From contig JANXAF010000006.1 in assembly GCA_025062045.1 (NCBI GenBank), positions 62,326 to 126,325 on the forward strand: a stretch of 64,000 bases of DNA, in the 5' to 3' direction. The translations under genes were made by a program, and so were the position numbers. Source of the DNA: Thermodesulfobacteriota bacterium. GTDB taxonomy: Bacteria > Desulfobacterota > Syntrophorhabdia > Syntrophorhabdales > JANXAF01. Within the stretch, counting starts at the first letter, position 1; each line of letters opens with the position of its first letter. Positions 4,173 to 28,359 of this stretch are shown here, piece by piece. Under the pieces are notes generated by a model. That model saw nothing but the letters and a program-made list of their open reading frames with translations, did no database searches and was not told the DNA's origin.

Positions 4173-4190
4173 CAATAACCCCCGTTATTG
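4173..4190. promoter_or_regulatory. Palindrome overlapping the -35 box, possible operator
   Basis: CAATAAC (4173-4179), four C, then GTTATTG (4184-4190) form a perfect 7-bp inverted repeat between divergent genes. Its right arm runs into the -35 element of the plus-strand operon, so a protein bound here could repress that promoter. As RNA on the plus strand it would also form a hairpin followed by seven T, but no gene ends here for it to terminate. Confidence 0.45.
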
Positions 4191-4216
4191 ATTTTTTTGG
4201 TAAGGGGGATTATACT
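4188..4216 (+). promoter_or_regulatory. Promoter of the zinc ribbon/ParB-like/radical SAM operon
   Basis: TTGATT (4188-4193) and TATACT (4211-4216) with a 17-base spacer. Transcription would begin near 4223. Confidence 0.6.
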
Positions 4217-4284
4217 TAGACTAGGGTACATTGAAAAAATCTCCTTTTTCAACAAAAATCTTTTTAAAGATCGAAGGAGGTATG

Positions 4285-4476
4285 GTGAGGAGATTTTTAG
4301 AAGAATATACGTGCAATCTGTGCGGCTTCTCTTTTTACTGCTTCGACAGGAAGAATCTCTTCTGTCCCGAGTGTGGAAGTAGTGTGGTAACAAGGGAGAT
4401 AACAATAGACGAATTCCTAGAAGATGAGAATTTCGAATACTTTTTCAAAGATTACAATCTGACCCGAACCTTGTAG
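4285..4476 (+). CDS. Small zinc ribbon protein
   Basis: About 63 residues with CNLCG and CPECG knuckles 16-20 residues apart, followed by an acidic tail; this is a single zinc ribbon of the FmdB/regulatory-protein type. An AAGGAGG ribosome site at 4274-4280 favours the GTG at 4285; an ATG at 4282 and a distant TTG at 4231 in the same frame are less well placed. It is the first gene of a five-gene operon and could be a regulator or a scaffold of that set. Its exact role cannot be deduced from sequence. Confidence 0.65.
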   Translation: MRRFLEEYTCNLCGFSFYCFDRKNLFCPECGSSVVTREITIDEFLEDENFEYFFKDYNLTRTL

Positions 4477-4492
4477 AGTCCGGAACCAGATT

Positions 4493-5425
4493 TTGAAGGA
4501 GCATGGCGATCTAGTTTACGTAGACATTTCCGACGTAGATTTAACCGACAATACCTATACTATCTCCTTTCCTCATGATGATCCAAGACTCGAATGGTAC
4601 ATCGGAAAGACCCGTTTAATAACTCCTGTCCTCCTTTTAGCTGGAAAGCCTCTTAAAGTCATTGATGGTTTAAGAAGAATAAGGTACGCTTCGAAATTAG
4701 AGTTAGAAGCCGTTCCAGCGTACGTACTCTCAGTTGAGCCTTATCGGGCGCTTATGATTGCTATCCTTGCCAATATCGCACGGGGCTTAAATATAGTAGA
4801 AAAGGCACATGCTATTGCAAAAATGTGTGAGTTCGGGTTCTCGGATGATGAGATATTCGAGCTTATGGGTTTTTTTGGTCTTGGAAGAAGTCAAAAAATA
4901 AAGAGTCTTTGTATTAAGATAGCGAGTGAGGAAGAAACGATCAAGTTCTATTTTTGTCAAAATTCCCTCTCTATGAAAACAATAGGCTACTTTTTCGATC
5001 TTACAGAGGAAAGCAGGAAAAAACTACTTAACTTTCTTCAAAATAAAAAAATAACTGAAAGTTCGCTACGGGAATTTTTGGAGCTTGTTCTCCTTGCGGA
5101 AGTAAAATTCGGTGATATCCCATTTTCTACATTCGAGCAAGCTCAGACGATTGACGAAGCCAAATTTTTACTCAAAAAAGAAGTTTCTCCTTCAATTTCC
5201 GCGCTCTGCACGGAATTTTTTGGAATCTTGGGTATGATAAAGTTGCCAAATACCACAAAGATAAAGGTGGATCCCTTCTTCGAAAAAGAGGAGATGGAAA
5301 TATCGATCTTGGCCAAATCTGTCGAAGATGTCGATCTAGCTTTAAAAAAATTACAAGTAGCTTTAGGAAGGGGGTACTTTGAAAAAATCTTCGCCCTTAC
5401 ACAGGGTAAGATTAGTCGAGCCTAA
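4493..5425 (+). CDS. ParB/sulfiredoxin-like domain protein
   Basis: A 310-residue protein. The first 90 residues resemble a ParB N-terminal domain, including the VIDGLRRIRYA box (compare VxDGxxRxxA in ParB). A helical segment follows (about 95-140: NIVEKAHAIAKM, then FGFSDDEIFELMGF) that looks like the ParB helix-turn-helix. The C-terminal 150 residues are unassigned. TTG at 4493 is the only plausible start visible, since the AAGGAG at 4496 lies inside the gene and has no start codon at the right distance. The gene overlaps the next by 47 bp. There is no ParA gene nearby, so chromosome partitioning is unlikely. A DNA-binding or nucleotide-dependent role linked to the adjacent lyase is an inference. 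Confidence 0.7.
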   Translation: MKEHGDLVYVDISDVDLTDNTYTISFPHDDPRLEWYIGKTRLITPVLLLAGKPLKVIDGLRRIRYASKLELEAVPAYVLSVEPYRALMIAILANIARGLNIVEKAHAIAKMCEFGFSDDEIFELMGFFGLGRSQKIKSLCIKIASEEETIKFYFCQNSLSMKTIGYFFDLTEESRKKLLNFLQNKKITESSLREFLELVLLAEVKFGDIPFSTFEQAQTIDEAKFLLKKEVSPSISALCTEFFGILGMIKLPNTTKIKVDPFFEKEEMEISILAKSVEDVDLALKKLQVALGRGYFEKIFALTQGKISRA

Positions 5426-6338
5426 GGGGCATATCGTAAGGGATTGTCCCGGTACGAAAAATCATATATGTTGCGGTTTGAAGATAATCGACATGATCGA
5501 GGGTTGTGTTCTTTTCTGCTCCTACTGCGTTTTGAGGACTTATTTGAATTCTAGTGAAATCAAGGCCGTAAATGATATTAGGTACATTATTTCCCAGATA
5601 GATGCCGAGATTGAAAATGAACCTAACCAAGTTATGAGATTCTGTACCGGTGAACTCTCTGACAGTCTCGCCCTTGATAGGATTTTGAGGCTTAATGTCC
5701 CGCTTATAGAATTTTTCGGTACTCGGAGGAGGGCTATATTAGAACTTAAGTCAAAATGGGCGTATATTGACCATCTTCTGCCGTATCTGAACAGATACAC
5801 TGTGATATCGTTCTCAGTTGCACCAGAAAAGATCATAAAAAACGAAGAAAAAAGGACAAGTCCGTTAAGGAAAAGGTTGCTCGCTTTAAAAAAAGCAATA
5901 GATGTGGGTCTTTATGTAGGCTTACATTTCGATCCCATAATAATATATCCAGGTTTCGAAAAGGATTACGGAGCATTAATAGATGATATAGCAAGAACAA
6001 TCGACTTAAAAAGGGTCATATGGGTCAGTCTAGGTGCACTTAGATTTCCAAGATCGTTATTTAGGGTTCTACTCGAGGAAAAGAGAAAAAACCTGTTCTT
6101 TGGTGAATTCATTCTTGGCGAAGACGGAAAAATGAGGTATTTAAAGGCTCAAAGAATAAATGCTTATAAACACATTTACGAATGTCTCAAAGAAAAGGAC
6201 TCTGATCTTTTCATTTACCTTTGCATGGAAAGACCATTTGTGTGGAAGTCGGTTACAGGTGAGGATATAACAAAAAATGCGGATCTTATCTGTAAATTTG
6301 ATGAGAGAGTCAGATCTTTCTATGGAGGGGAAATATGA
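5379..6338 (+). CDS. Spore photoproduct lyase-like radical SAM protein
   Basis: A 319-residue radical SAM enzyme. The cluster motif CVLFCSYC (CxxxCxxC, about 43-50), followed directly by VLRTYLN, matches the CxxxCxxCYLQTYLN signature of the SplB (spore photoproduct lyase) family. Later stretches on substrate geometry (FCTGELSDSLALD, VISFSVAPEKI, GLHFDPII) also fit. SplB repairs the thymine dimer of spore DNA; non-sporulating bacteria carry homologues of unknown or DNA-repair function. The TTG start is well supported by AGGAAGGGGG at 5365-5374. The gene overlaps the ParB-like gene upstream and, by ATGA, the SDR gene downstream, so the three are translationally coupled. Confidence 0.82.
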   Translation: MKKSSPLHRVRLVEPKGHIVRDCPGTKNHICCGLKIIDMIEGCVLFCSYCVLRTYLNSSEIKAVNDIRYIISQIDAEIENEPNQVMRFCTGELSDSLALDRILRLNVPLIEFFGTRRRAILELKSKWAYIDHLLPYLNRYTVISFSVAPEKIIKNEEKRTSPLRKRLLALKKAIDVGLYVGLHFDPIIIYPGFEKDYGALIDDIARTIDLKRVIWVSLGALRFPRSLFRVLLEEKRKNLFFGEFILGEDGKMRYLKAQRINAYKHIYECLKEKDSDLFIYLCMERPFVWKSVTGEDITKNADLICKFDERVRSFYGGEI

Positions 6339-7126
6339 GGTTCAAAGACAAAGTAGTTTTTGTAACTGGTGGATCTAGGGGTTTAGGGAAAGCGCTCGTT
6401 TCAGCTTTCTTAAAAGAGGGAGCTATAGTAGGTACAAACGGAAGGGATAAAGGAAGGCTCGAAGCATTAAAAAATGAGTACGCAGAGAAGGGAAATCTTG
6501 TGGTATATGAGGGGGACATTTCAGATTATCAGAGGATTGAAGAGATTAGCGAAGACTTTGCAGGAAGGCACGGAAGGGTTGATGTTCTTATTAACAACGC
6601 AGCGGTGATAAACCCCATTCTTCCATCTGAAAAACTGAAAAAGGAGGATTTCGAAAGAGTAATAGACGTAAACATTAAGGGGACCTTTTATGTAACCTAC
6701 CACTTTGGTAAAAAGATGCTCGAAAGAAAAAGAGGCCGAATAATAAACATCGCATCTCAAGCAGCTTTATTCGGCGAAAAAGGGTTCCTTCCCTACGCAG
6801 TAAGTAAGGCTGCAATAATCTCAATGACCAGAATTCTGGGTTACGAGTGGGCGCAGAAAGGCGTCACCGTATGTGCGTTGGCACCCGGTTTTATAAAGGG
6901 AGGAATGAACGAAAGTCTGATTAAAAGAGAAATTTTCGTCGATTTTCTTTCCAAACGTACACCATTAGGGAGAATGGCAGAGATCCATGAATTCGTGTCC
7001 CTCGTTCTTTTTCTTGCCTCGGAGGAAGCACAATACATAAACGGAGAAACTATAGTTCTTGATGGCGGAATGACAGGTTACACCGGACAGCCATTTCTGG
7101 ATTTCTTAGAATCTCTAAAAAAGTAA
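6335..7126 (+). CDS. Short-chain dehydrogenase/reductase (FabG-like)
   Basis: A 263-residue classical SDR with the NAD(P) motif TGGSRGLG near residue 11, NNAA near 88, a catalytic serine in INIASQAA, and YAVSK as the YxxxK active site. The length is typical. It is closest in style to 3-oxoacyl-ACP reductase/gluconate 5-dehydrogenase members, but the substrate cannot be read. An ATGA overlap couples it to the radical SAM gene. Confidence 0.88.
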   Translation: MRFKDKVVFVTGGSRGLGKALVSAFLKEGAIVGTNGRDKGRLEALKNEYAEKGNLVVYEGDISDYQRIEEISEDFAGRHGRVDVLINNAAVINPILPSEKLKKEDFERVIDVNIKGTFYVTYHFGKKMLERKRGRIINIASQAALFGEKGFLPYAVSKAAIISMTRILGYEWAQKGVTVCALAPGFIKGGMNESLIKREIFVDFLSKRTPLGRMAEIHEFVSLVLFLASEEAQYINGETIVLDGGMTGYTGQPFLDFLESLKK

Positions 7127-7135
7127 AGGCAAATT

Positions 7136-7750
7136 ATGAACCTTTTGACCTTCGTTCGGTATACGTTCGATTCAAAGTACCTCATTCGCTGGGTCCTTCC
7201 GGGTCTTGCGATCTATATCCCCATTCTCAATTTCTTTTCCATAGGTTACGTAGTGAAGATGGCAAAAACGTTTCTTTTTGGCAATATAGGAATTCCAACA
7301 TGGGAAAACAAATCCCAGATCTGGGTTGAGGGCCTAAGGATAGTTATTATATGTGTTATCTATTTCGCCCTTCCCTCTTTCATTCTCTCTATAGGTTACT
7401 TTTTCTCGAACATGGAAGGCATTGTCGGTTTTATAGGAAAGGTTCTGACATTTTTTTCCTACCCTCTTTTTTTCATCTTCAGTTTTCCACTTCCCTTCGC
7501 CTTTTCGGTCTACGCTCAGAAGATGCACATAAAGGATGCCTTCGATTATGAAAAAATACTTGTGGCCATAAAAGAAGTATCTGTCCCATACATTACGGGT
7601 TTTATCTGTGCCTTTTTTGCTCTTTTTGTATCAAAAGCTTTGATTGCTATCCCTTATATCGGCTTTATTATTTCTTCCCTTACGACTTATTACACCTTTC
7701 TTCTCTCTTCTTATTTTTTTGCAACCCTTTTTAAAAGAGCCACTCTTTAA
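7136..7750 (+). CDS. DUF4013-like integral membrane protein
   Basis: A 204-residue protein with about five hydrophobic segments. The N-terminal section, with GLAIYIPILNFFSIGYVVKMA followed by a GIPTWEN motif, resembles the DUF4013 family of bacterial and archaeal membrane proteins, whose function is unknown. It ends the operon that begins at 4285. It is convergent with the epimerase gene, with only 16 bp between them. Confidence 0.7.
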   Translation: MNLLTFVRYTFDSKYLIRWVLPGLAIYIPILNFFSIGYVVKMAKTFLFGNIGIPTWENKSQIWVEGLRIVIICVIYFALPSFILSIGYFFSNMEGIVGFIGKVLTFFSYPLFFIFSFPLPFAFSVYAQKMHIKDAFDYEKILVAIKEVSVPYITGFICAFFALFVSKALIAIPYIGFIISSLTTYYTFLLSSYFFATLFKRATL

Positions 7751-19663: not shown

Positions 19664-20289
19664 TTCTCTCCTTTTATGAAGAAATTACAGCTATTTTTCA
19701 GCTCACATCTGTTACATTCAGGTTTTCTAGCCTTACAAACGTACCTTCCATGAAGGATAAGGAGTAAAGAGAGGTCTAACCATCTATCCCTAGGCACTTT
19801 CTTTTTCAGATCGATCTCTATTCTTTCCGGATCTTCAAAATCGGTAAGACCGATTCTATTCGCTACCCTTTTTACGTGAGTATCTACAATGAGAGCCGGT
19901 TTCTTATAAGCGCAACCCACTATCATGTTGGCTGACTTTCTTCCAATCCCTTTCACACTCGCAAGGAGATCTATATCTTCGGGTACCTTTCCGGAAAAAC
20001 GGATTTTTATCTCTTCCGCAATGTTTTTCAGCGTCTTCGCTTTGTTTCTGAAAAATCCCGTAGGTTTTATGTCCTCTTCTAGTTCCTCGATCTTAACAGC
20101 AATGTAATCATCGAGTGATCTGTACTTTTTAAACAATTTTTCAGTTACCTTATTTACCCTCTCGTCAGTGCACTGGGCTGAAAGAACCGTTGCCACAGTA
20201 AGTTCCAAAGGATTCGAAAAGTTAAGTTCACACCTCGGTTCTCCGTGCATATTTTTAAGTCGTTCTATGAGTTCTTCTACGTTTTTCAT
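19660..20289 (-). CDS. nth: Endonuclease III
   Basis: A 209-residue DNA glycosylase/AP lyase for oxidised pyrimidines. The helix-hairpin-helix VKGIGRKSANMIVG includes the catalytic Lys118, and VDTHVKR the catalytic Asp136. A [4Fe-4S] site is complete: C185, C192, C195, C201 (CX6CX2CX5C). The gene overlaps polX upstream and transketolase downstream by four bases each, so a repair pair is embedded in a metabolic operon. Confidence 0.96.
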   Translation of the reverse strand: MKNVEELIERLKNMHGEPRCELNFSNPLELTVATVLSAQCTDERVNKVTEKLFKKYRSLDDYIAVKIEELEEDIKPTGFFRNKAKTLKNIAEEIKIRFSGKVPEDIDLLASVKGIGRKSANMIVGCAYKKPALIVDTHVKRVANRIGLTDFEDPERIEIDLKKKVPRDRWLDLSLLLILHGRYVCKARKPECNRCELKNSCNFFIKGEK

Positions 20290-22010
20290 AGGCTGTTTTT
20301 TCTCTTTTTCAAGAAAAACTCCCTCAGTTCAGAAGAACTTCTTGTGTTTAAAACGTCTTTTTTTTCGAGCCATCCCTTTCTCGCAATGGCCACACCGTAC
20401 GCCAAATCCGTAAGCTCGGTTTTAGAGTGGGCGTCGGGATTTATGGAAATCAAAATCCCATTCGATTTTGTCATCTTCAAATAGCGCCAGTCCATATCTA
20501 GTCTATAAGGACTGGAGTTAAGTTCTATCACAATCCCCCTTTCTTTTGCAGTCCTTAAAATCTCCTCCATATCGACGGCATATCCTTTCCTTGATAGAAG
20601 AAGTCTCCCTGTTGGATGGCCGAGCATTGTCACATAAGGATTTTCAAGGGCCTTTTTTATCCTTTCTGTCTGTTCTTTAATTCCGAGATTGAAATGGGAA
20701 TGTACCGAAGCAATAACAAAGTCAAAATTTCTTAAGATTTCTGGAGGGTAATCTAGACTTCCGTCAGGCAGAATGTCACTCTCAATGCCTTTAAAGACAT
20801 AAAAGCTTTCCTCCTTCCTATTTATCTCGTCTATGATCTCCCACTGCCTCTTTAAATCCTCAACTTTTAAACCCCTCGCATAATAAGCGCTTCTACTGTG
20901 ATCGCTTATACCCACATACTCCATTCCCATTTTTTTGCAGAACTCGATAATCTTCTCTATTGGATCGATCCCGTCACTAAAGTCAGAATGGACATGAAAG
21001 AGACCTTTTATGTCCTCTTCTTTTACAAGCTCAGGAAGACCATTCTTTTTTGCCGCTTCTAGCTCTCCCATATCTTCTCGAAGCTCTGGAGGTATAAACT
21101 GGAGCCCTATAAAATTGTAAATCTCCTCTTCCGTATTTAAGGTGATCAGTTTTTCGCCATTTGTGATCGAAGATGGATTAAGACTGAGACCTTCATTTTT
21201 GAAATGGGCTTTCAATTTTTTTATGTGGTTTTCGCTACCTGTCAGATGAAGCAAAAGATGTGCATACTCGGGTGGAGCTGCTATTCTTATCTCCACGTTA
21301 ATTCCCGAAACTGTTTTAAAAACGGCTGAGTTTTCATCTTCAAATATTAGGCCCTGGATTAAGGGGAGCCTCAATAGGTATTCGATTACTTTCTCTTTTG
21401 ATTCTCCCCCAACAAGAACATCTATATCCCTTACAGTTTCTTTTCTTCTACGGATGCTCCCACAAATCTCAACACGGCATAGAGGGAAACGCTCTTTTAA
21501 AATCTCCTTTAGCATTAAAGCTCTCGGTTCAGCATCCACTAGCAAGAACTCATTTTGGTGCTTTTTTAGGAATTCTATACCCGCCAGTATTTTCTCTTGC
21601 GTTTTTTTTCCAAAACCGAAAAGGGTCATCAATCGGTTCTCTTTGATAGCGTATTCCAGTTCTCCCAGGTTCGTTATCCCGAGTTTCTCGTAAATTACTC
21701 TTATCCTTTTCGGACCTAGGTGGGGAACCTTCATAAGCTCAAGGATAGAGGGAGGAAATTCTCTTTTTAACTCTTCATAAAGAGAGATAGTTCCCCTTTC
21801 GTAATACTCTTCTATTTTTCTCGAGAGGCCCTCCCCTATCCCTTCTATCTTTTTAAGCCGCCCTTCAATTATGAGTTCCTCGAGATTGTCAATTTGAGAA
21901 AGTACTTTTGCCGCATTCTGATAAGCCCTAACCTTATAGGGGTTTTCCCCTTTTATCTCCAAAAGAGCCGCGATCTCTTCGAAAATAAGAGGAAGAGCCG
22001 TAAGATTCAC
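20286..22010 (-). CDS. polX: DNA polymerase/3'-5' exonuclease PolX
   Basis: A 574-residue bacterial family X polymerase with the usual fusion. An N-terminal helix-hairpin-helix region (LKIEGIGEGLSRKIEEY) is followed by a nucleotidyltransferase palm with GSIRRRKETVRDIDVLV. A C-terminal PHP phosphoesterase domain begins GLFHVHSDFSDGIDP and contains GISDHSRSAYYA and SVHSHFNL metal-binding motifs. It fills short gaps in base excision repair, and the coupled nth gene supports that role. The start at 22010 is an ATG next to the tig promoter region on the other strand. Confidence 0.94.
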   Translation of the reverse strand: MNLTALPLIFEEIAALLEIKGENPYKVRAYQNAAKVLSQIDNLEELIIEGRLKKIEGIGEGLSRKIEEYYERGTISLYEELKREFPPSILELMKVPHLGPKRIRVIYEKLGITNLGELEYAIKENRLMTLFGFGKKTQEKILAGIEFLKKHQNEFLLVDAEPRALMLKEILKERFPLCRVEICGSIRRRKETVRDIDVLVGGESKEKVIEYLLRLPLIQGLIFEDENSAVFKTVSGINVEIRIAAPPEYAHLLLHLTGSENHIKKLKAHFKNEGLSLNPSSITNGEKLITLNTEEEIYNFIGLQFIPPELREDMGELEAAKKNGLPELVKEEDIKGLFHVHSDFSDGIDPIEKIIEFCKKMGMEYVGISDHSRSAYYARGLKVEDLKRQWEIIDEINRKEESFYVFKGIESDILPDGSLDYPPEILRNFDFVIASVHSHFNLGIKEQTERIKKALENPYVTMLGHPTGRLLLSRKGYAVDMEEILRTAKERGIVIELNSSPYRLDMDWRYLKMTKSNGILISINPDAHSKTELTDLAYGVAIARKGWLEKKDVLNTRSSSELREFFLKKRKNSL

Positions 22011-22118: not shown

Positions 22119-23384
22119 GTGAAAGTCTCGCTTATCGATGTCGACAAAACGACAAAAAGAATAGAGGTCATTCTTCCCAAGGAGAAGGTTCAAGACATAA
22201 GGGAAAAGACGATTGATGAGATAAGAAAAAAAGTCAGGATAAGAGGATTTAGACCGGGGAAGGTTCCCCGCGCGTTGGTACTCAGTTATTATTCTGATCT
22301 GATCGAAGAAGAGACAAAAAGGAAGGTCATAGATGAGACCATAAGTTCTGCTCTGGAAAAGGCCAATGTCGATCCACTTGTGAGACCGATAGTCGATTTC
22401 ATCGAAACGGAGGACGGTGAAGGTTATGTCATGGATTGTGAGGTAATTCCTGAATTGGAGATCAAAGAATACAAGGGCATTGAGGTAGAGGTAAAAAAGG
22501 CCGATGTAAAAGATGACGAGATAGTAGAAAGATTGGAAAGCTTAAGAAACATGCACGCCTTAATAAGGGAAAAAGAAAAAGACGATCAAGCTAGATTTGG
22601 AGACGTGGCTATAATAAAGTATCGGGGTTATCTTGACGGCAAACCATTAAAAGAGGCAGGAACGGACTTCTATCCACTTGAGCTCGGCAAAGGTATGTTT
22701 TTGCCAGAATTTGAAAATGCGATAGTAGGGATGAAAAAAGGGGAGGAAAGGGACGTAGAGATAGATTTTCCTTTGGATTACCCAGATAAAGAAGTGGCCG
22801 GTAAAAGAGTTCTTTTTAAGGTGACCTTAAAGGAATTGAAGGAAAAGGTTCTGCCAGAGCTTTCAGATGAATTCGCCAAGGATTTGAGTTTTCAAAACCT
22901 GGAGGCACTCAAGGAAGGGATTAAAGAGTCAATTAAAAAGGAAAAGGAAGCACTAAGAAGGGAATACATATATAGGACGGTAATCGACAAGATTCTAGAC
23001 GGAATTGAGATTCCCATTCCGCCTCGTTATCTGAATAAGAGAATCGAAGACGTTCTCGAGGACTTCAAGGAGAAAACGAAGGACAGTAATTTGCTCAAAG
23101 AGGAGGAGGAAAAGCTAAGGGAAGAGGTGGAAAGGAGGGTAAAAGAGGAGCTAAAAGAAGAGATTGTCCTCATAAACGTGGCAAAAAAGGAAGCGATAGA
23201 AGTAAGCGACGAGGAACTGATTTCCGAGATAAAAAAGATAGCAGATGAGATGAAACGGTCCTACGAAGAGGTGAGGTCATTCTTTGAAAAAAATGGACTT
23301 CTGGGTTATATTAGAAGTAAAGTTCTTTTGAGGAAAACAAAGGATTTTCTTATCGAACAGGCTCAACCCAAGGAGATACCATGA
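22119..23384 (+). CDS. tig: Trigger factor
   Basis: A ribosome-bound peptidyl-prolyl isomerase chaperone. It has an N-terminal ribosome-binding domain with the GFRPGKVPR signature, a central FKBP-like domain ([37 protein letters not shown]) and a helical C-terminal domain. An upstream ATG at 22107 is possible (425 residues), but GTG at 22119 sits five bases after GGAGG and gives the family's usual VKVSLIDVD start (421 residues), so I prefer it. The stop overlaps clpP by four bases. Confidence 0.95.
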
Positions 23385-23965
23385 CCCTAATTCCCATAGT
23401 CATTGAAAGGGATGGAAGAGGAGAAAGGGCATACGATATATATTCCCGCCTTTTAAAAGAGCGCATAATCTTTCTTGGCACACCTATAGATGACCAGACG
23501 GCGAATGTTGTGATAGCCCAGTTACTTTTTTTAGAGTCTGAGGACCCAGAAAAAGATATTTACCTTTACATCAATTCGCCTGGAGGATACATAACGAGTG
23601 GGCTTGCCATATACGATACCATGCAGTACATAAAGCCTAACGTATCAACCATCTGCATAGGACAGGCTGCGTCCATGGCGGCGGTACTCCTTGCAGGTGG
23701 AGAAAAGGGTAAAAGGTATGCTCTACCAAATTCCAGGATACTTATCCATCAGCCATTAGGGGCATTTCAGGGTCAGGCAACCGACATCGATATTCAGGCG
23801 AAAGAGATTTTAAGAATGAAAGATAGAATAAACAGAATTCTAACTAAACATACGGGTCAGCCTCTCGAAAAGATAGCGCGGGATACCGAAAGGGATTTTT
23901 ACATGAGTGCCGAGCAGGCTCTCGAATACGGAATTATCGATAAGATCGTGGAGAAGAGGCAATGA
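23381..23965 (+). CDS. clpP: ATP-dependent Clp protease proteolytic subunit
   Basis: A 194-residue serine peptidase with catalytic triad S98 (GQAASMAAV), H123 (RILIHQPLG) and D172 (ERDFYMS). It forms the tetradecameric chamber fed by ClpX or ClpA. It is coupled by ATGA overlaps to tig and clpX, the conserved tig-clpP-clpX order. Confidence 0.98.
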
Positions 23966-25221
23966 GCATGATAAGAAGAAATAACGGAAGAACGATGAAG
24001 TTACATTGCTCGTTCTGTGGAAAAAGCCAGGATGAGGTAAAGAAGCTTATTGCGGGGCCTTTGGTTTACATATGTGATGAGTGTGTGGAGCTCTGTAACG
24101 AGATTATTAAGGAGGAGATGAAAAAAGAAAAGTTCGAGTACATAAGGACGTCGATACCAAAGCCCCACGAGATTATGAAGCAGCTCGATGAATACGTTGT
24201 TGGACAGGAATACGCAAAAAAGATCCTTTCAGTTGCGGTCTATAACCATTACAAAAGGATAGAATCGAAAGCCACAGGTGACGATGTGGAAATCCAAAAA
24301 AGCAATATCCTCCTTATTGGACCTACAGGCTCAGGAAAGACCCTCCTTGCCAAAACACTTGCAAAGATTCTCCACGTTCCCTTTACCATAGCTGATGCCA
24401 CAACCTTGACCGAGGCCGGATATGTTGGAGAGGACGTGGAAAACATAATTCTGTACTTGCTACAGGCAGCGGATTACAACATAGAGAAGGCTGAGAAAGG
24501 GATCGTTTACATAGATGAGATCGACAAGATTTCCAGGAAAAGTGACAGTCCATCAATAACGAGGGATGTATCTGGGGAAGGTGTTCAGCAGGCCCTATTA
24601 AAGATAATAGAGGGTACGATAGCAAATGTACCGCCAAAGGGTGGGAGAAAGCATCCGCAGCAGGATTACATAAAAGTCGATACTACTAACATCCTTTTTA
24701 TATGTGGCGGGGCTTTCATCGGGATAGAAAACATCATTGCAAATAGGATAGGCAAAAAAAGCATAGGTTTTGGTGCGGAGGTTGAAGGTGGCAGGAATAA
24801 AAGGTATTCCGAACTTATACGGGAGATTCAGCCAGAAGATCTCATAAAATATGGTTTGATACCGGAGTTTGTTGGAAGGCTCCCAATCATTGCCCCCCTC
24901 GATGAACTTACAGAGGACCAGCTTGTGGAGATATTGAAAACCCCAAAGAATGCTATTGTCAAGCAGTATAAAAAGTTATTTGAGCTCGACAATGTGACTT
25001 TAACATTCACTGAAGGTGCCTTAAGAGCAATAGCAAGAGAGGCAATGAAGAAAAAGACAGGGGCTCGTGGACTCAGAGCCATTATGGAAAAAGTGATGCT
25101 CGACGTGATGTACGAGATTCCCTCTCTTCCCAATGTCAGGGAGTGCGTAATCAACGAGGATACCATACTTAACAAAGAGCGGCCCATAATGATATATGAG
25201 GAAAAGGCTGAGATCGCATAG
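23962..25221 (+). CDS. clpX: ATP-dependent Clp protease ATP-binding subunit ClpX
   Basis: A 419-residue AAA+ unfoldase. The N-terminal zinc-binding domain has [11 protein letters not shown] and [11 protein letters not shown]; Walker A is [12 protein letters not shown], Walker B is [11 protein letters not shown], and the GYVGEDVE pore loop is present. ATG at 23962 overlaps the clpP stop; a second ATG at 23968 is possible. It is the last gene before a tRNA pair. Confidence 0.98.
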
Positions 25222-25222
25222 A

Positions 25223-25251
25223 TTGATTAGTTTCGCCAAACTTGGTATATT
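25223..25251 (+). promoter_or_regulatory. Promoter of the tRNA-Val/tRNA-Asp pair
   Basis: TTGATT (25223-25228) and TATATT (25246-25251), 17-base spacer. It starts immediately after the clpX stop and lies 11 bp before tRNA-Val. Confidence 0.55.
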
Positions 25252-25262
25252 AAGTTCCACCT

Positions 25263-25337
25263 GGGCGGGTAGCTCAGTGGGAGAGCATCGGCCTTACAAG
25301 CCGGGGGCCGGAGGTTCAAACCCTCTCCCGCCTACCA
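25263..25337 (+). tRNA. tRNA-Val (anticodon UAC)
   Basis: A complete cloverleaf of 75 bases including encoded CCA. The acceptor GGGCGGG pairs with CCCGCCT. The anticodon stem TCGGC/GCCGG encloses CTTACAA (anticodon TAC), and the T arm is GGAGG-TTCAAAC-CCTCT. Confidence 0.96.
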
Positions 25338-25358
25338 TACTCCCAGTAGGGTATATGC

Positions 25359-25437
<79 letters not shown>

Positions 25438-25451
25438 TAAAAAGGACGTTG

Positions 25452-27521
25452 ATGGAATTTATCTTCTGTCTCCACCTCCACCAGCCCGTCGGAAACATCG
25501 AAGATATACTCGAGAAAGCCTATGCTCATGCTTATGGTCCTTTTCTTGATGTTTTTGAGGAATTTGCCAACATAAAACTTAATCTTCACATCTCAGGGTA
25601 TTTGCTGGAATGGCTTATAGATAGGAAGCCAAGTTACATCGAAAGACTTAAGAGACTCGTAAAGTTAAATAGAGTGGAGATTCTAACTGGGGGAATGTAC
25701 GAACCTATTTTAACTATGATTCCTTGGCGGGACGGTATCGGACAGATAAGGATGCATAAAAAGCTCATAAAAGATGTCTTCGACTACGATCCTAAAGGGA
25801 TGTGGGTTGCCGAACGGGTTTACGAACCGCACCTTCCTCTCATTCTTGCAAAGGCTAAAGTGTCCTACATAGTCCTCGATGATCACCATTTTACCGCCAT
25901 AGGGTTTACGGAGCGAGAACTTTACGGATATTATCTCACTGAGTTTGAAAACTATAGGATAGGCGTATTTGCGGGTCTCCAGTACTTAAGATACGCCATC
26001 CCTTTCAAGCAAGTGAACGAAATCGATAGTTACTTTCGACATGTTCAGAAAAACGCAGGAAATCTCTTAGTCTTTGCAGATGACGGAGAAAAGTTCGGAC
26101 TTTGGCCCGGTACTTTCGATCACGTGTACAAAAATGGATGGATAAGGAGTTTTTTTACTTACCTCAGCGACAATAGAGAATGGATCAAAACCACAACATT
26201 CGGAGAATTCATTAAAAATCATAAACCTTCGGGGGTCGCGTATCTTAACTGTAATTCTTACAGGGAGATGGACGAGTGGTGTCTTCCGTCAAAAATGGTG
26301 AACGATTATAACGACTTATTCAACACTTCGAAACCTAATTTGCGACAATTCATAGAAGGGGGGTATTTCAAACACTTCCTTGTCAAGTATGAAGAAAGTA
26401 ATGATATGCATAAAAAGATGCTTTATGTTTCAAAAAACCAGAAGAATAACAAAGAAGTAAAGAGGGCCCTTTATAAGGCACAGTGCAACGACGCTTACTG
26501 GCATGGGGTTTTTGGGGGGCTATACCTTCCACATCTACGCTCCACGGTATACCGAAACCTTATCGAAGCCGAAATATTAGCCGAGGCCAAAAAGGATTTT
26601 CCCGAGGCTTATTTAGAGGATGTAAATCTTGACGGGTTTGAGGAAGTTATCCTCAATACGAAAAATGTCAAAGCTTACTTTCTTCTCAGGGAAGGAGGGG
26701 TTCTTTACGAATTAGACTATAAGCCTAAGAAGGTCAATTTAGTTGCTACTTTGAGGAGAAGATACGAGGCTTATCATGAGAAGTTAAAGCAGGCAATACC
26801 TGCCGAAAAGACAGATGGTACCAAAACTATCCATGAGCTTCTGCTTATTAAGGAGGTGGGACTAGAAAATCTTCTCCATTATGACTGGTATAGAAGGGCA
26901 TGTCTTGTCGACCACGTACTTGGCAAAGATGTCAGTTTTCTAAGTTTTTATAGATGTGAGTATTGCGAGCCAGGAGATTTTGTGAAGGAGCCTTATGAGG
27001 CAAAAATAGATAAGACAGAAGGTGAGTTGATTCTCACTCTCAGAAGAGATGGACATTTCTGGAAAGGGCACGCTGGTATCCCTCTTAGTATCATAAAGAG
27101 AGTAAAATTTCCTTTGTATCAGGATAAGTTCATCGTGACTTATGAAATATTAGGTGAAGTGAAAGAGGCTTTCATTTTGGGGGTCGAATTCAACTTTTCC
27201 TTTCTGGGTTCGGGTGGAGAGAGATATATTGAATTGAACAAAAAGAGATTTCCCCTCACAAAGATGGGCGCAATTGAGCCATCGAGTATAGCGCGCTTCT
27301 TCGATCCGTACCAAGAGGTAGAAATATTCATGAGGATGGAAAAACCGCAAGAGATTTGGACTCATCCTGTGGAAGTAGTTTCCCTCTCTGAGGAAGGCTT
27401 TGAAAGAAACTATCAGTCAACCATGTTTATGCCTCTTTGGCATGTGGATTTAAAAGAGGGTGTTGCGGGGTTCCAAATCGAACTCGAGATAAATGGTCTC
27501 AGCCATAATAACCACGTATAA
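25452..27521 (+). CDS. GH57 alpha-glucan enzyme (4-alpha-glucanotransferase/alpha-amylase type)
   Basis: About 690 residues, the size of Thermococcus litoralis-type GH57 4-alpha-glucanotransferases. It begins with FCLHLHQPVGN. The nucleophile Glu near 122 lies in MWVAERVYEP, and the acid/base Asp lies in FADDGEKFGLWPGT near 210. A DUF1925-like middle segment (NDAYWHGVFGGLYLPHLR) and a DUF1926-like beta-rich C-terminus follow. It acts on stored alpha-glucan or maltodextrin. TTG at 25449 and ATG at 25452 are adjacent; AAAGGA lies just upstream, only a few bases after tRNA-Asp, so the mRNA is probably cut from the tRNA transcript. It overlaps the next gene by 29 bp. Confidence 0.9.
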   Translation: MEFIFCLHLHQPVGNIEDILEKAYAHAYGPFLDVFEEFANIKLNLHISGYLLEWLIDRKPSYIERLKRLVKLNRVEILTGGMYEPILTMIPWRDGIGQIRMHKKLIKDVFDYDPKGMWVAERVYEPHLPLILAKAKVSYIVLDDHHFTAIGFTERELYGYYLTEFENYRIGVFAGLQYLRYAIPFKQVNEIDSYFRHVQKNAGNLLVFADDGEKFGLWPGTFDHVYKNGWIRSFFTYLSDNREWIKTTTFGEFIKNHKPSGVAYLNCNSYREMDEWCLPSKMVNDYNDLFNTSKPNLRQFIEGGYFKHFLVKYEESNDMHKKMLYVSKNQKNNKEVKRALYKAQCNDAYWHGVFGGLYLPHLRSTVYRNLIEAEILAEAKKDFPEAYLEDVNLDGFEEVILNTKNVKAYFLLREGGVLYELDYKPKKVNLVATLRRRYEAYHEKLKQAIPAEKTDGTKTIHELLLIKEVGLENLLHYDWYRRACLVDHVLGKDVSFLSFYRCEYCEPGDFVKEPYEAKIDKTEGELILTLRRDGHFWKGHAGIPLSIIKRVKFPLYQDKFIVTYEILGEVKEAFILGVEFNFSFLGSGGERYIELNKKRFPLTKMGAIEPSSIARFFDPYQEVEIFMRMEKPQEIWTHPVEVVSLSEEGFERNYQSTMFMPLWHVDLKEGVAGFQIELEINGLSHNNHV

Positions 27522-28359
27522 CAGGCGGGATTTCGTAAAAGAGGCAATCGAATCTGTCTTGAATCAGGATCACAGGCCCGAAGAGATAATAGTTGTCGAT
27601 GACGGATCCGACGACGGGACCGAAGAAGAAGTGAAGAAGTATCCCGTCAAGTACGTATGGAAGGAAAATGGAGGGGTAAGTTCTGCTCGAAATTTGGGCA
27701 TAAAGATATCAAACGGTGAATATATTGCATTTTTAGACTCCGATGATCTCTGGCTCAAAAAAAAGGTATCGACACAGGTTCACCTTATGGAGAGTTTGGG
27801 ATACCACGTATCCTACACCGATGAAATATGGATAAGGAACGGAAGAAGGGTCAATCCCAAAAAAAAGCACAAAAAATACTCCGGATTTATATACGATAAA
27901 TGCCTTCCCCTCTGCATCATAAGCCCTTCGTCAGTCATGATAAAAAGGCAAGTTTTCGAAAAAGTTGGCCTATTCGATGAATCGCTTCCCGTGTGTGAGG
28001 ATTACGATATGTGGCTTAGAATTACTGCCCTCTATCCTGTCCTTTTCATTGAAAAACCCTTAATCGTGAAAAGGGGAGGCCATGAGGATCAACTGTCTAA
28101 AAAGTACGAGGCGATAGACCGTATGAGGATCAAAGCCCTTCTCAAAATTTTTGACACAGGAGTTTTAACTCCCCAGATGAAAAAGATCACGCTCGAAGAG
28201 ATTCAACGAAAATCCCTTATTGTGGCAAACGGAGCAAAAAAAAGGAATAAGTTGGAGGAAGCAGAGTACTACTATAGACTTGCCGAGTACTCGGCCCAGG
28301 CTTTAAAAGAAATTGAGTGCGCCCAGCAGGAGTCGAACCTGCAACCTTTGGATTCGTAG
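27493..28359 (+). CDS. Family 2 glycosyltransferase
   Basis: A 288-residue GT-A fold glycosyltransferase. It starts at a GTG with the SAIITTYNRRDFV strand, followed by VVDDGSDDGT, a SARNLGI motif, AFLDSDDLW (the DxD metal site) and CEDYDMWLR near the catalytic base. The nucleotide-sugar donor is unknown. It overlaps the GH57 gene by 29 bp and is probably cotranscribed. The final 14 codons read through the antisense strand of tRNA-Arg, ending in QQESNLQPLDS, so the native tail may have been lost. Confidence 0.85.
   Translation: MVSAIITTYNRRDFVKEAIESVLNQDHRPEEIIVVDDGSDDGTEEEVKKYPVKYVWKENGGVSSARNLGIKISNGEYIAFLDSDDLWLKKKVSTQVHLMESLGYHVSYTDEIWIRNGRRVNPKKKHKKYSGFIYDKCLPLCIISPSSVMIKRQVFEKVGLFDESLPVCEDYDMWLRITALYPVLFIEKPLIVKRGGHEDQLSKKYEAIDRMRIKALLKIFDTGVLTPQMKKITLEEIQRKSLIVANGAKKRNKLEEAEYYYRLAEYSAQALKEIECAQQESNLQPLDS

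Follow-up and report, generated by a model that had tools for sequence, protein, structure and literature searches.

The locus analyzed here raises the question of what a relative of spore photoproduct lyase (SPL), a radical S-adenosylmethionine (SAM) enzyme, may do in a non-spore-forming bacterium, and why its gene is coupled to that of a ParB-like protein. The window, the whole analyzed stretch of 64,000 nucleotides from a Thermodesulfobacteriota genome of the class Syntrophorhabdia (1.76 Mb in 29 contigs, 97% complete), contains between positions 4285 and 7750 five plus-strand genes for a zinc-ribbon protein, a ParB-like protein, an SPL-like radical SAM enzyme, a short-chain dehydrogenase/reductase (SDR), and a DUF4013 membrane protein. 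The ParB-like and SPL-like genes overlap in one class, adjoin in 27 families, and co-occur at separate positions across several phyla; these overlapping or adjoining, widely co-occurring genes therefore very likely share one function.

In the window, the ParB-like gene (4493..5425, plus strand) and the SPL-like gene (5379..6338, plus strand) share 47 bp (5379 to 5425). Because the ParB-like profile also picks up canonical ParB proteins, only strong matches were counted. Among the 46 genomes of the class, an SPL-like gene was present in 41 and a strong ParB-like match likewise in 41. Both genes were found in 40 genomes. They are neighbors on a single contig in 39 of these, and their matches overlap in 36 of the 39; in the 40th genome (G003), the ParB-like gene is split over contig ends. 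Neither gene occurs in 4 of the 46, and the two mismatches (G017 and G019) lie at contig ends. The SPL-like profile found 182 of the 297 genomes of the phylum at E values up to 1e-20. Strong ParB-like matches were present in 149 genomes among the matches listed, or in 156 when readings from the genome table are included, and an SPL-like gene accompanied them in 146 of the 149 and 152 of the 156, respectively. In three of the exceptions (G111, G199, and G294), the ParB-like gene is at a contig edge where the SPL-like gene would come next; the fourth is G154.

The ParB-like gene was located directly upstream of the SPL-like gene, on the same strand and within 2.5 kb, for 81 of the 150 SPL-like matches listed (27 families; 55 of 150 with the narrower profile A2 instead of A4). 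Both genes were present but apart for 48 of these 150, and the remaining 21 were without a strong ParB-like match, some of them with a weak one beside the SPL-like gene. The gene order was reversed in one locus, L275. In a separate comparison of neighboring genes, three loci that were not placed (L158, L187, and L109) were left out. Lack of conservation of the pair in relatives had been named beforehand as one outcome that would refute the proposed link, and the pair is kept far beyond close relatives. The further idea that the overlap implies equal amounts of both proteins is not warranted, as many genomes lack the overlap and the genes are often apart. Fusion proteins were also considered: open reading frames of 420 to 806 codons around the SPL-like or ParB-like matches at 14 loci appeared to be open frames running into the neighboring gene, mostly in GC-rich genomes, and no fusion was found. 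Carriage by mobile elements was discarded as well, with distant SPL-like matches in only three plasmid records and one phage record.

Outside the phylum, SPL-like homologues occur in records titled SAR324, Nitrospinota, Nitrospirota, Sumerlaeota, Saganbacteria, Margulisiibacteriota, and Chitinivibrionales, mostly without a ParB-like neighbor. Twenty genomes of other lineages were chosen by their SPL-like gene. A ParB-like match of at least 98 bits was present in 17 of them, compared with at most 90 bits reached by canonical ParB proteins, and it was adjacent in only one. As side observations, a gene with a LON substrate-binding domain follows the SPL-like gene on the same strand in SAR324 (14 loci of one cluster, L090 to L114). 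In family f13 (L210 to L214), a ThiI/NFACT-R-like gene follows the SPL-like gene in several genomes, a THEP1-type NTPase gene precedes it in some, and the ParB-like gene, where found, is elsewhere in the genome.

A third partner, which was not visible to the sequence-only reading, appears when the gene upstream of the ParB-like gene is inspected in the 62 loci outside the class with room upstream: it encodes one distinct family-2 glycosyltransferase in 22 of the 62 and PurC in 15. In the window, this glycosyltransferase gene (27493..28359, plus strand) is 20 kb away from the operon. In the loci compared, orthologues scored at least 297 bits with its profile and other glycosyltransferases at most 48 bits; matches were counted at E values below 1e-70, which left out seven weaker ones. 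The gene was present in 170 of the 297 genomes of the phylum, together with the SPL-like gene in 163 and with the ParB-like gene in 148 of the 170. It is also present, at 311 to 448 bits, in 18 of the 20 genomes from other lineages, G338 and G350 being the exceptions; G350 is also without a strong ParB-like match, and its SPL-like protein lacks the extra cysteine residues described below. The co-occurrence tables take all 182 SPL-positive genomes; one comparison excluded 13 weak SPL matches. Fisher tests for the three genes gave p values below 1e-45, a figure that takes no account of shared ancestry.

Evaluation of these counts needs to consider that 31 of the 95 families are uniformly SPL negative and 50 uniformly positive, so that many counts are not independent. 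The three genes could thus be functionally unrelated and linked only by joint inheritance and loss in whole clades. This explanation is very unlikely, since joint absence recurs within families that vary: in the 12 families variable for the SPL-like gene, 17 of the 23 SPL-negative genomes were without all three genes, distributed over 8 families. The other six retained the two other genes (G294, G111, and G154) or only the glycosyltransferase gene (G091, G155, and G268). Moreover, the GH57 gene next to the glycosyltransferase gene in the window, used as a control, did not track the set; it was present in 82 of the 297 genomes, with the SPL-like gene in 38 of the 82, and yielded a Jaccard index of 0.17 versus 0.82 to 0.86 for the ParB-like, SPL-like, and glycosyltransferase genes. 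The overlap kept in most genomes of the class likewise argues against mere joint inheritance.

The surroundings of the glycosyltransferase gene were recorded in addition. Positions 23381 to 28359 of the window contain consecutively clpP, clpX, a gene for a GH57 4-alpha-glucanotransferase-like protein, and the glycosyltransferase gene, and in loci of family f10, clpX (L155 and L157) or a GH57 gene (L149 and L152) precedes the ParB-SPL pair at a distance of a few genes; together, these arrangements suggest one ancestral block. A small protein with a Rho_N domain and a basic C terminus is encoded upstream of the glycosyltransferase or PurC gene preceding the ParB-like gene (L149:8873-9265 and 13 further loci). 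A large open reading frame at 20286 to 22010 (minus strand), which by eye resembles a DNA polymerase of the PolX-PHP type, adjoins an endonuclease III-like gene.

The enzyme of the pair belongs to the wider SPL family. It scored 83.2 bits with the Pfam family SPL (PF20903; gathering cutoff of 27), and its AlphaFold model (pLDDT of 91.2) matched best to the solved structure of a spore photoproduct lyase, 4fhf (Z score of 28.9, root mean square deviation [rmsd] of 2.7 over 276 residues), followed by other radical SAM folds at 15.4. It carries a CxxxCxxC motif (C43, C47, and C50), and residues C43, C47, Y49, C50, D95, K126, K251, R253, and E284 were invariant in 138 distinct homologues. The first half of the identity assigned in the sequence-only reading, an SPL-like radical SAM protein, was thereby borne out, and the second half, a photoproduct lyase, was not. 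The SplB equivalog model TIGR04070 gave 89.5 bits (88.6 in the genome search) versus a cutoff of 400. The position of the hydrogen-donating cysteine, C141 in Bacillus subtilis (Bs) and C140 in the Gt enzyme, is occupied by Glu92 in the window protein and by glutamate in 135 of the 138 homologues; that of the relay tyrosine Y99(Bs)/Y98(Gt) is occupied by Val51, with tyrosine in only 6 of the 138. The roles of C141, Y97, and Y99(Bs) in SPL are described in PMC5368176 and PMC3742179, as far as the accessible text of these papers goes. Because the B. subtilis-type donor and one relay tyrosine are replaced, the protein is not an SPL of the standard type. Compared to SplB (TIGR04070; structures 4fhc to 4fhg, 4k9r, and 4rh0), it shares the radical SAM fold over about 276 residues, the CxxxCxxC motif, and a tyrosine at the position of Y96(Gt). 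It differs by the glutamate instead of C140(Gt), an isoleucine or valine instead of Y98(Gt), extra conserved cysteine residues at both termini, a short N terminus in the Syntrophorhabdia, the partner protein, and the non-sporulating hosts.

The extra cysteine residues C23, C32, and C282 were present together in 131 of the 138 homologues. An auxiliary Fe-S cluster formed by these three residues was considered and not retained: five of the other seven homologues keep C282 while having lost C23 and C32, so that a joint cluster is not demonstrated. Four Syntrophorhabdia genomes (L194 to L197) encode another SPL-family protein, about 380 codons long, with phenylalanine instead of C23 and alanine instead of C32.

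Nevertheless, the protein could be a genuine UV lyase of the spore photoproduct type that uses another cysteine as hydrogen donor. A precedent is the clostridial SPL with the different donor C74, reported in the available part of PMC5368176; C31/C32, a candidate counterpart, is in the same upstream segment as C74, which directly precedes the first core strand, and close to the site of the S76C substitution named in a PDB title. The fold match and the invariance of K126 and D95 agree with this proposal. The nearly universal glutamate at the donor position, the rarity of tyrosine at that of Y98, and a TIGR04070 score far below the cutoff speak against it, as does the origin of many homologue records from sediments, digesters, and marine samples, where little UV is to be expected. 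No spores are known in these lineages, which counts in the same direction. Use as a UV lyase is thus improbable.

The ParB-like protein was modeled with a mean pLDDT of 94.9 and contains a ParB/Noc nucleotide-binding fold, a helix-turn-helix (HTH) domain, and a C-terminal helix-strand-strand-helix region. The single sequence reached a Pfam score of only 18.5, below the cutoff of 26.3, but the model matched ParB, Noc, KorB, and PadC structures and also the DNA-binding domain of Noc alone, with a Z score of 11.9 to 5k5d (rmsd of 6.8 over 200 residues) and of 11.8 to 6ryk (rmsd of 2.2 over 96 residues); judged by the rmsd values, the fit is closer for individual domains than for the entire chain. 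Invariant in 47 aligned rows were G59, the glycine of Box II, N94, R97, and E103 of Box III, and E264. In a tree, 60 ParB-like and 8 canonical ParB rows were on opposite sides of one branch (100/100), with the bootstrap not fully settled. The absence of a ParA partner suspected before holds at the operon, the ParA-ParB genes of this genome being at a separate locus (L264). In the loci read, ParA genes preceded the canonical ParB genes and not the ParB-like genes. A chromosomal ParABS partition function is not supported, as there is no ParA in the operon and the protein does not group with canonical ParB. With ParB, Noc, KorB, and the orphan proteins of the ParB-CTPase fold, as presented in the accessible part of PMC12704722, it shares the nucleotide-binding fold, a part of the Box II and III residues, and the HTH fold. 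It differs by its separate branch, the missing ParA, and its tie to a radical SAM gene.

A protein of this kind might also be merely the transcription factor of the operon and have no part in the action of the enzyme, since the ParB relatives KorB and VirB regulate genes and KorB structures were among the fold matches. No operator-like palindrome upstream of the ParB-like gene was shared within genera g15 and g6, and the element common to six loci of g15 was a plain promoter-like motif (TTGACA and TACAAT). In addition, the co-occurrence persists when the genes are at a distance from each other, as in the 48 of 150 matches listed and in 16 of the 17 outside genomes, which makes a purely regulatory role highly improbable.

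The five-gene operon, with its overlaps, was found as described in the sequence-only reading, all genes being on the plus strand. It did not begin at position 4173 as first given: the gene set starts at about 4285, and positions 4173 to 4190 form an inverted repeat with a run of T residues, immediately followed by a putative sigma-70-like promoter ahead of the operon (TTGATT-17-TATACT, 4188..4216, plus strand). The corresponding position carries similar hexamers in L032 and L033, the other two genomes from the family of the window; a pattern scan for promoter-like sites gave no clear excess over shuffled sequences. The zinc-ribbon gene (4285..4476, plus strand) could start with an ATG at 4282, but the GTG at 4285 is favored because of its spacing to an AGGAGG motif and because the relative L033, when aligned, likewise has a GTG. 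With the TTG starts of the ParB-like and SPL-like genes, the latter at 5379 and preceded by GGAAGGGGG, the three unusual starts proposed are plausible. The SPL-like and SDR genes overlap in ATGA, and a gap of 9 bp separates the SDR gene (6335..7126, plus strand) from the DUF4013 gene (7136..7750, plus strand).

This arrangement is not due to chance, as the order ParB-SPL-SDR-DUF4013 recurs through the class. It was kept as far as the contig reaches in 30 public Syntrophorhabdia contigs, with the exception of L078, which is without SDR; 27 of the 30 have the SDR gene in the operon, and DUF4013 is the last operon gene also in 27 of the 30. Outside the class, an SDR gene is located 3' of the SPL-like gene in L149, L152, L155, L157, and L158. 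The zinc ribbon is part of the operon only in the family of the window (three of three genomes); an unlinked homologue was seen in a genome of another family (L086:15124-15288, minus strand).

These observations of conservation, adjacency, co-occurrence, folds, and residue changes suggest that the two proteins may form a complex and that the ParB-like protein may bind a nucleotide, with DNA as the putative substrate; the reaction and the order of steps outlined here are proposed on this basis. Most likely, the ParB-like protein would be a nucleotide-switched loader or clamp on DNA that is not tied to ParA, and it would bring the SPL-fold radical SAM enzyme to DNA. There, the 5'-deoxyadenosyl radical may attack a pyrimidine-type lesion or base. 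As other residues stand in for the customary hydrogen donor and for one relay residue, the chemistry would be unlike that of classical spore photoproduct lyase. The glycosyltransferase may take part as well, its target possibly being the product or a common precursor, and the SDR and DUF4013 proteins would be helpers in some lineages. DNA is pointed to since the ParB-fold protein has a DNA-binding domain and SplB-like genes elsewhere pair with DNA-linked partners, namely NreB in archaea and SRAP or ImuB-C repair genes in bacteria, according to the accessible portions of PMC4929162 and PMC3765255. The archaeal NreB-SplB pair (PMC4929162, in the part available) is alike in that an SplB-like gene adjoins or overlaps a gene linked to DNA metabolism. 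It differs in that the partner here has a ParB fold and not that of Nre, the hosts are bacteria and not archaea, and a glycosyltransferase co-occurs. Delivery of an SPL-fold radical enzyme to DNA by an NTP-switch ParB-like protein, as parts of one conserved machine with the glycosyltransferase in the same process, is the favored reading, with a probability somewhat short of even.

Several results weigh against this delivery model. Alanine takes the place of the acidic residue ahead of N94 in Box III of the ParB-like protein of the window, and the glutamate of the canonical GERR motif is missing; the capacity for hydrolysis may therefore be lost. The PurC neighbor has no evident link to DNA, and the co-occurrence counts are uncorrected for shared ancestry. 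The set is also incomplete in places: the Saganbacteria genome G344 has the SPL-like and glycosyltransferase genes with only a weak ParB match, eight genomes have the ParB-like gene without the glycosyltransferase (G046, G085, G120, G121, G123, G125, G150, and G152), and several, such as three f4 genomes, have both the SPL-like and ParB-like genes without it. A glycosyltransferase is not expected in a simple reversal of lesions, and the present enzyme is similar to those of polysaccharides, namely chondroitin synthase and TuaG.

The same resemblance favors an alternative in which the product of the three genes is a metabolite or envelope component bearing a sugar. A nucleoside or another small molecule would be the substrate of the SPL-fold enzyme and would be decorated by the glycosyltransferase, with the ParB-fold protein as a kinase for small molecules or a regulator and not as a DNA clamp. 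The SDR and the membrane protein of the class operon fit this proposal, and free serine kinase and SbnI, which share the ParB fold, were among the fold matches. These kinase matches cover only the first 80 residues or so, however, and the ParB-like protein keeps the HTH and a further C-terminal region; in other families, no recognizable biosynthetic cluster surrounds the pair. The metabolite alternative is consequently rather unlikely, though to be reckoned with.

Also at odds with the delivery model is the outcome of a search for signs of SOS control. Such control of splB has been predicted in other proteobacteria (PMC3323433, accessible part). Three box patterns, TAGWACANNNGTTCTA, TAGAACANNTGTTCTA, and TATACANNTGTATA, were derived from the regions upstream of lexA in the class, with positive controls matched in four lexA loci. 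With up to two mismatches, no LexA-like box was found within 450 bp upstream in any of the 28 class loci, and the first pattern, TAGWACANNNGTTCTA, had fewer matches in the whole window than in shuffled sequences. An SOS-regulated SplB repair gene was hence abandoned as an explanation for these loci. Upstream of lexA in the class (L234 to L263), no fewer than two distinct palindromes occur, TAGAACA..TGTTCTA and TATACA..TGTATA, which may reflect a divergence of LexA specificity among these bacteria. A defense system was likewise rejected, with no PADLOC match for four proteins.

The glycosyltransferase fits better with a modification than with a reversal of lesions. A more specific and unlikely version of the delivery model is an oxygen-independent modification of chromosomal DNA bases in Desulfobacterota, SAR324, Nitrospinota, and others, in which the ParB-like protein would load and spread, the SPL-fold enzyme would functionalize thymine or another pyrimidine, and the glycosyltransferase would add a sugar. 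In the base J pathway, thymine is functionalized and then glycosylated, and the idea of functionalization followed by addition of a sugar would be common to both. The first step of base J formation depends on oxygen-requiring dioxygenases, in contrast, and the modified base in the organisms considered here is purely hypothetical.

No paper linking spore photoproduct lyase or radical SAM enzymes to ParB-like proteins was found in the open literature, subscription papers and supplements being outside the search; one Clostridium genome paper that names both photoproduct lyase and ParB seems to have no bearing on the matter, and the main text of a 2025 survey of the ParB fold (PMC12704722), in its accessible part, is without the words radical, photoproduct, and lyase. 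The set of ParB-like, SPL-like, and glycosyltransferase genes in many non-spore-forming bacteria thus seems to be undescribed and hints at repair or marking of DNA. If the delivery model is true, the ParB switch would here serve a novel purpose, namely to direct an enzyme to DNA instead of moving chromosomes, and the pair would provide a handle on the standing question of the role of SplB-like proteins in bacteria that do not form spores. With the glycosyltransferase, the set could represent a repair pathway or a DNA modification new to bacterial chromosomes.

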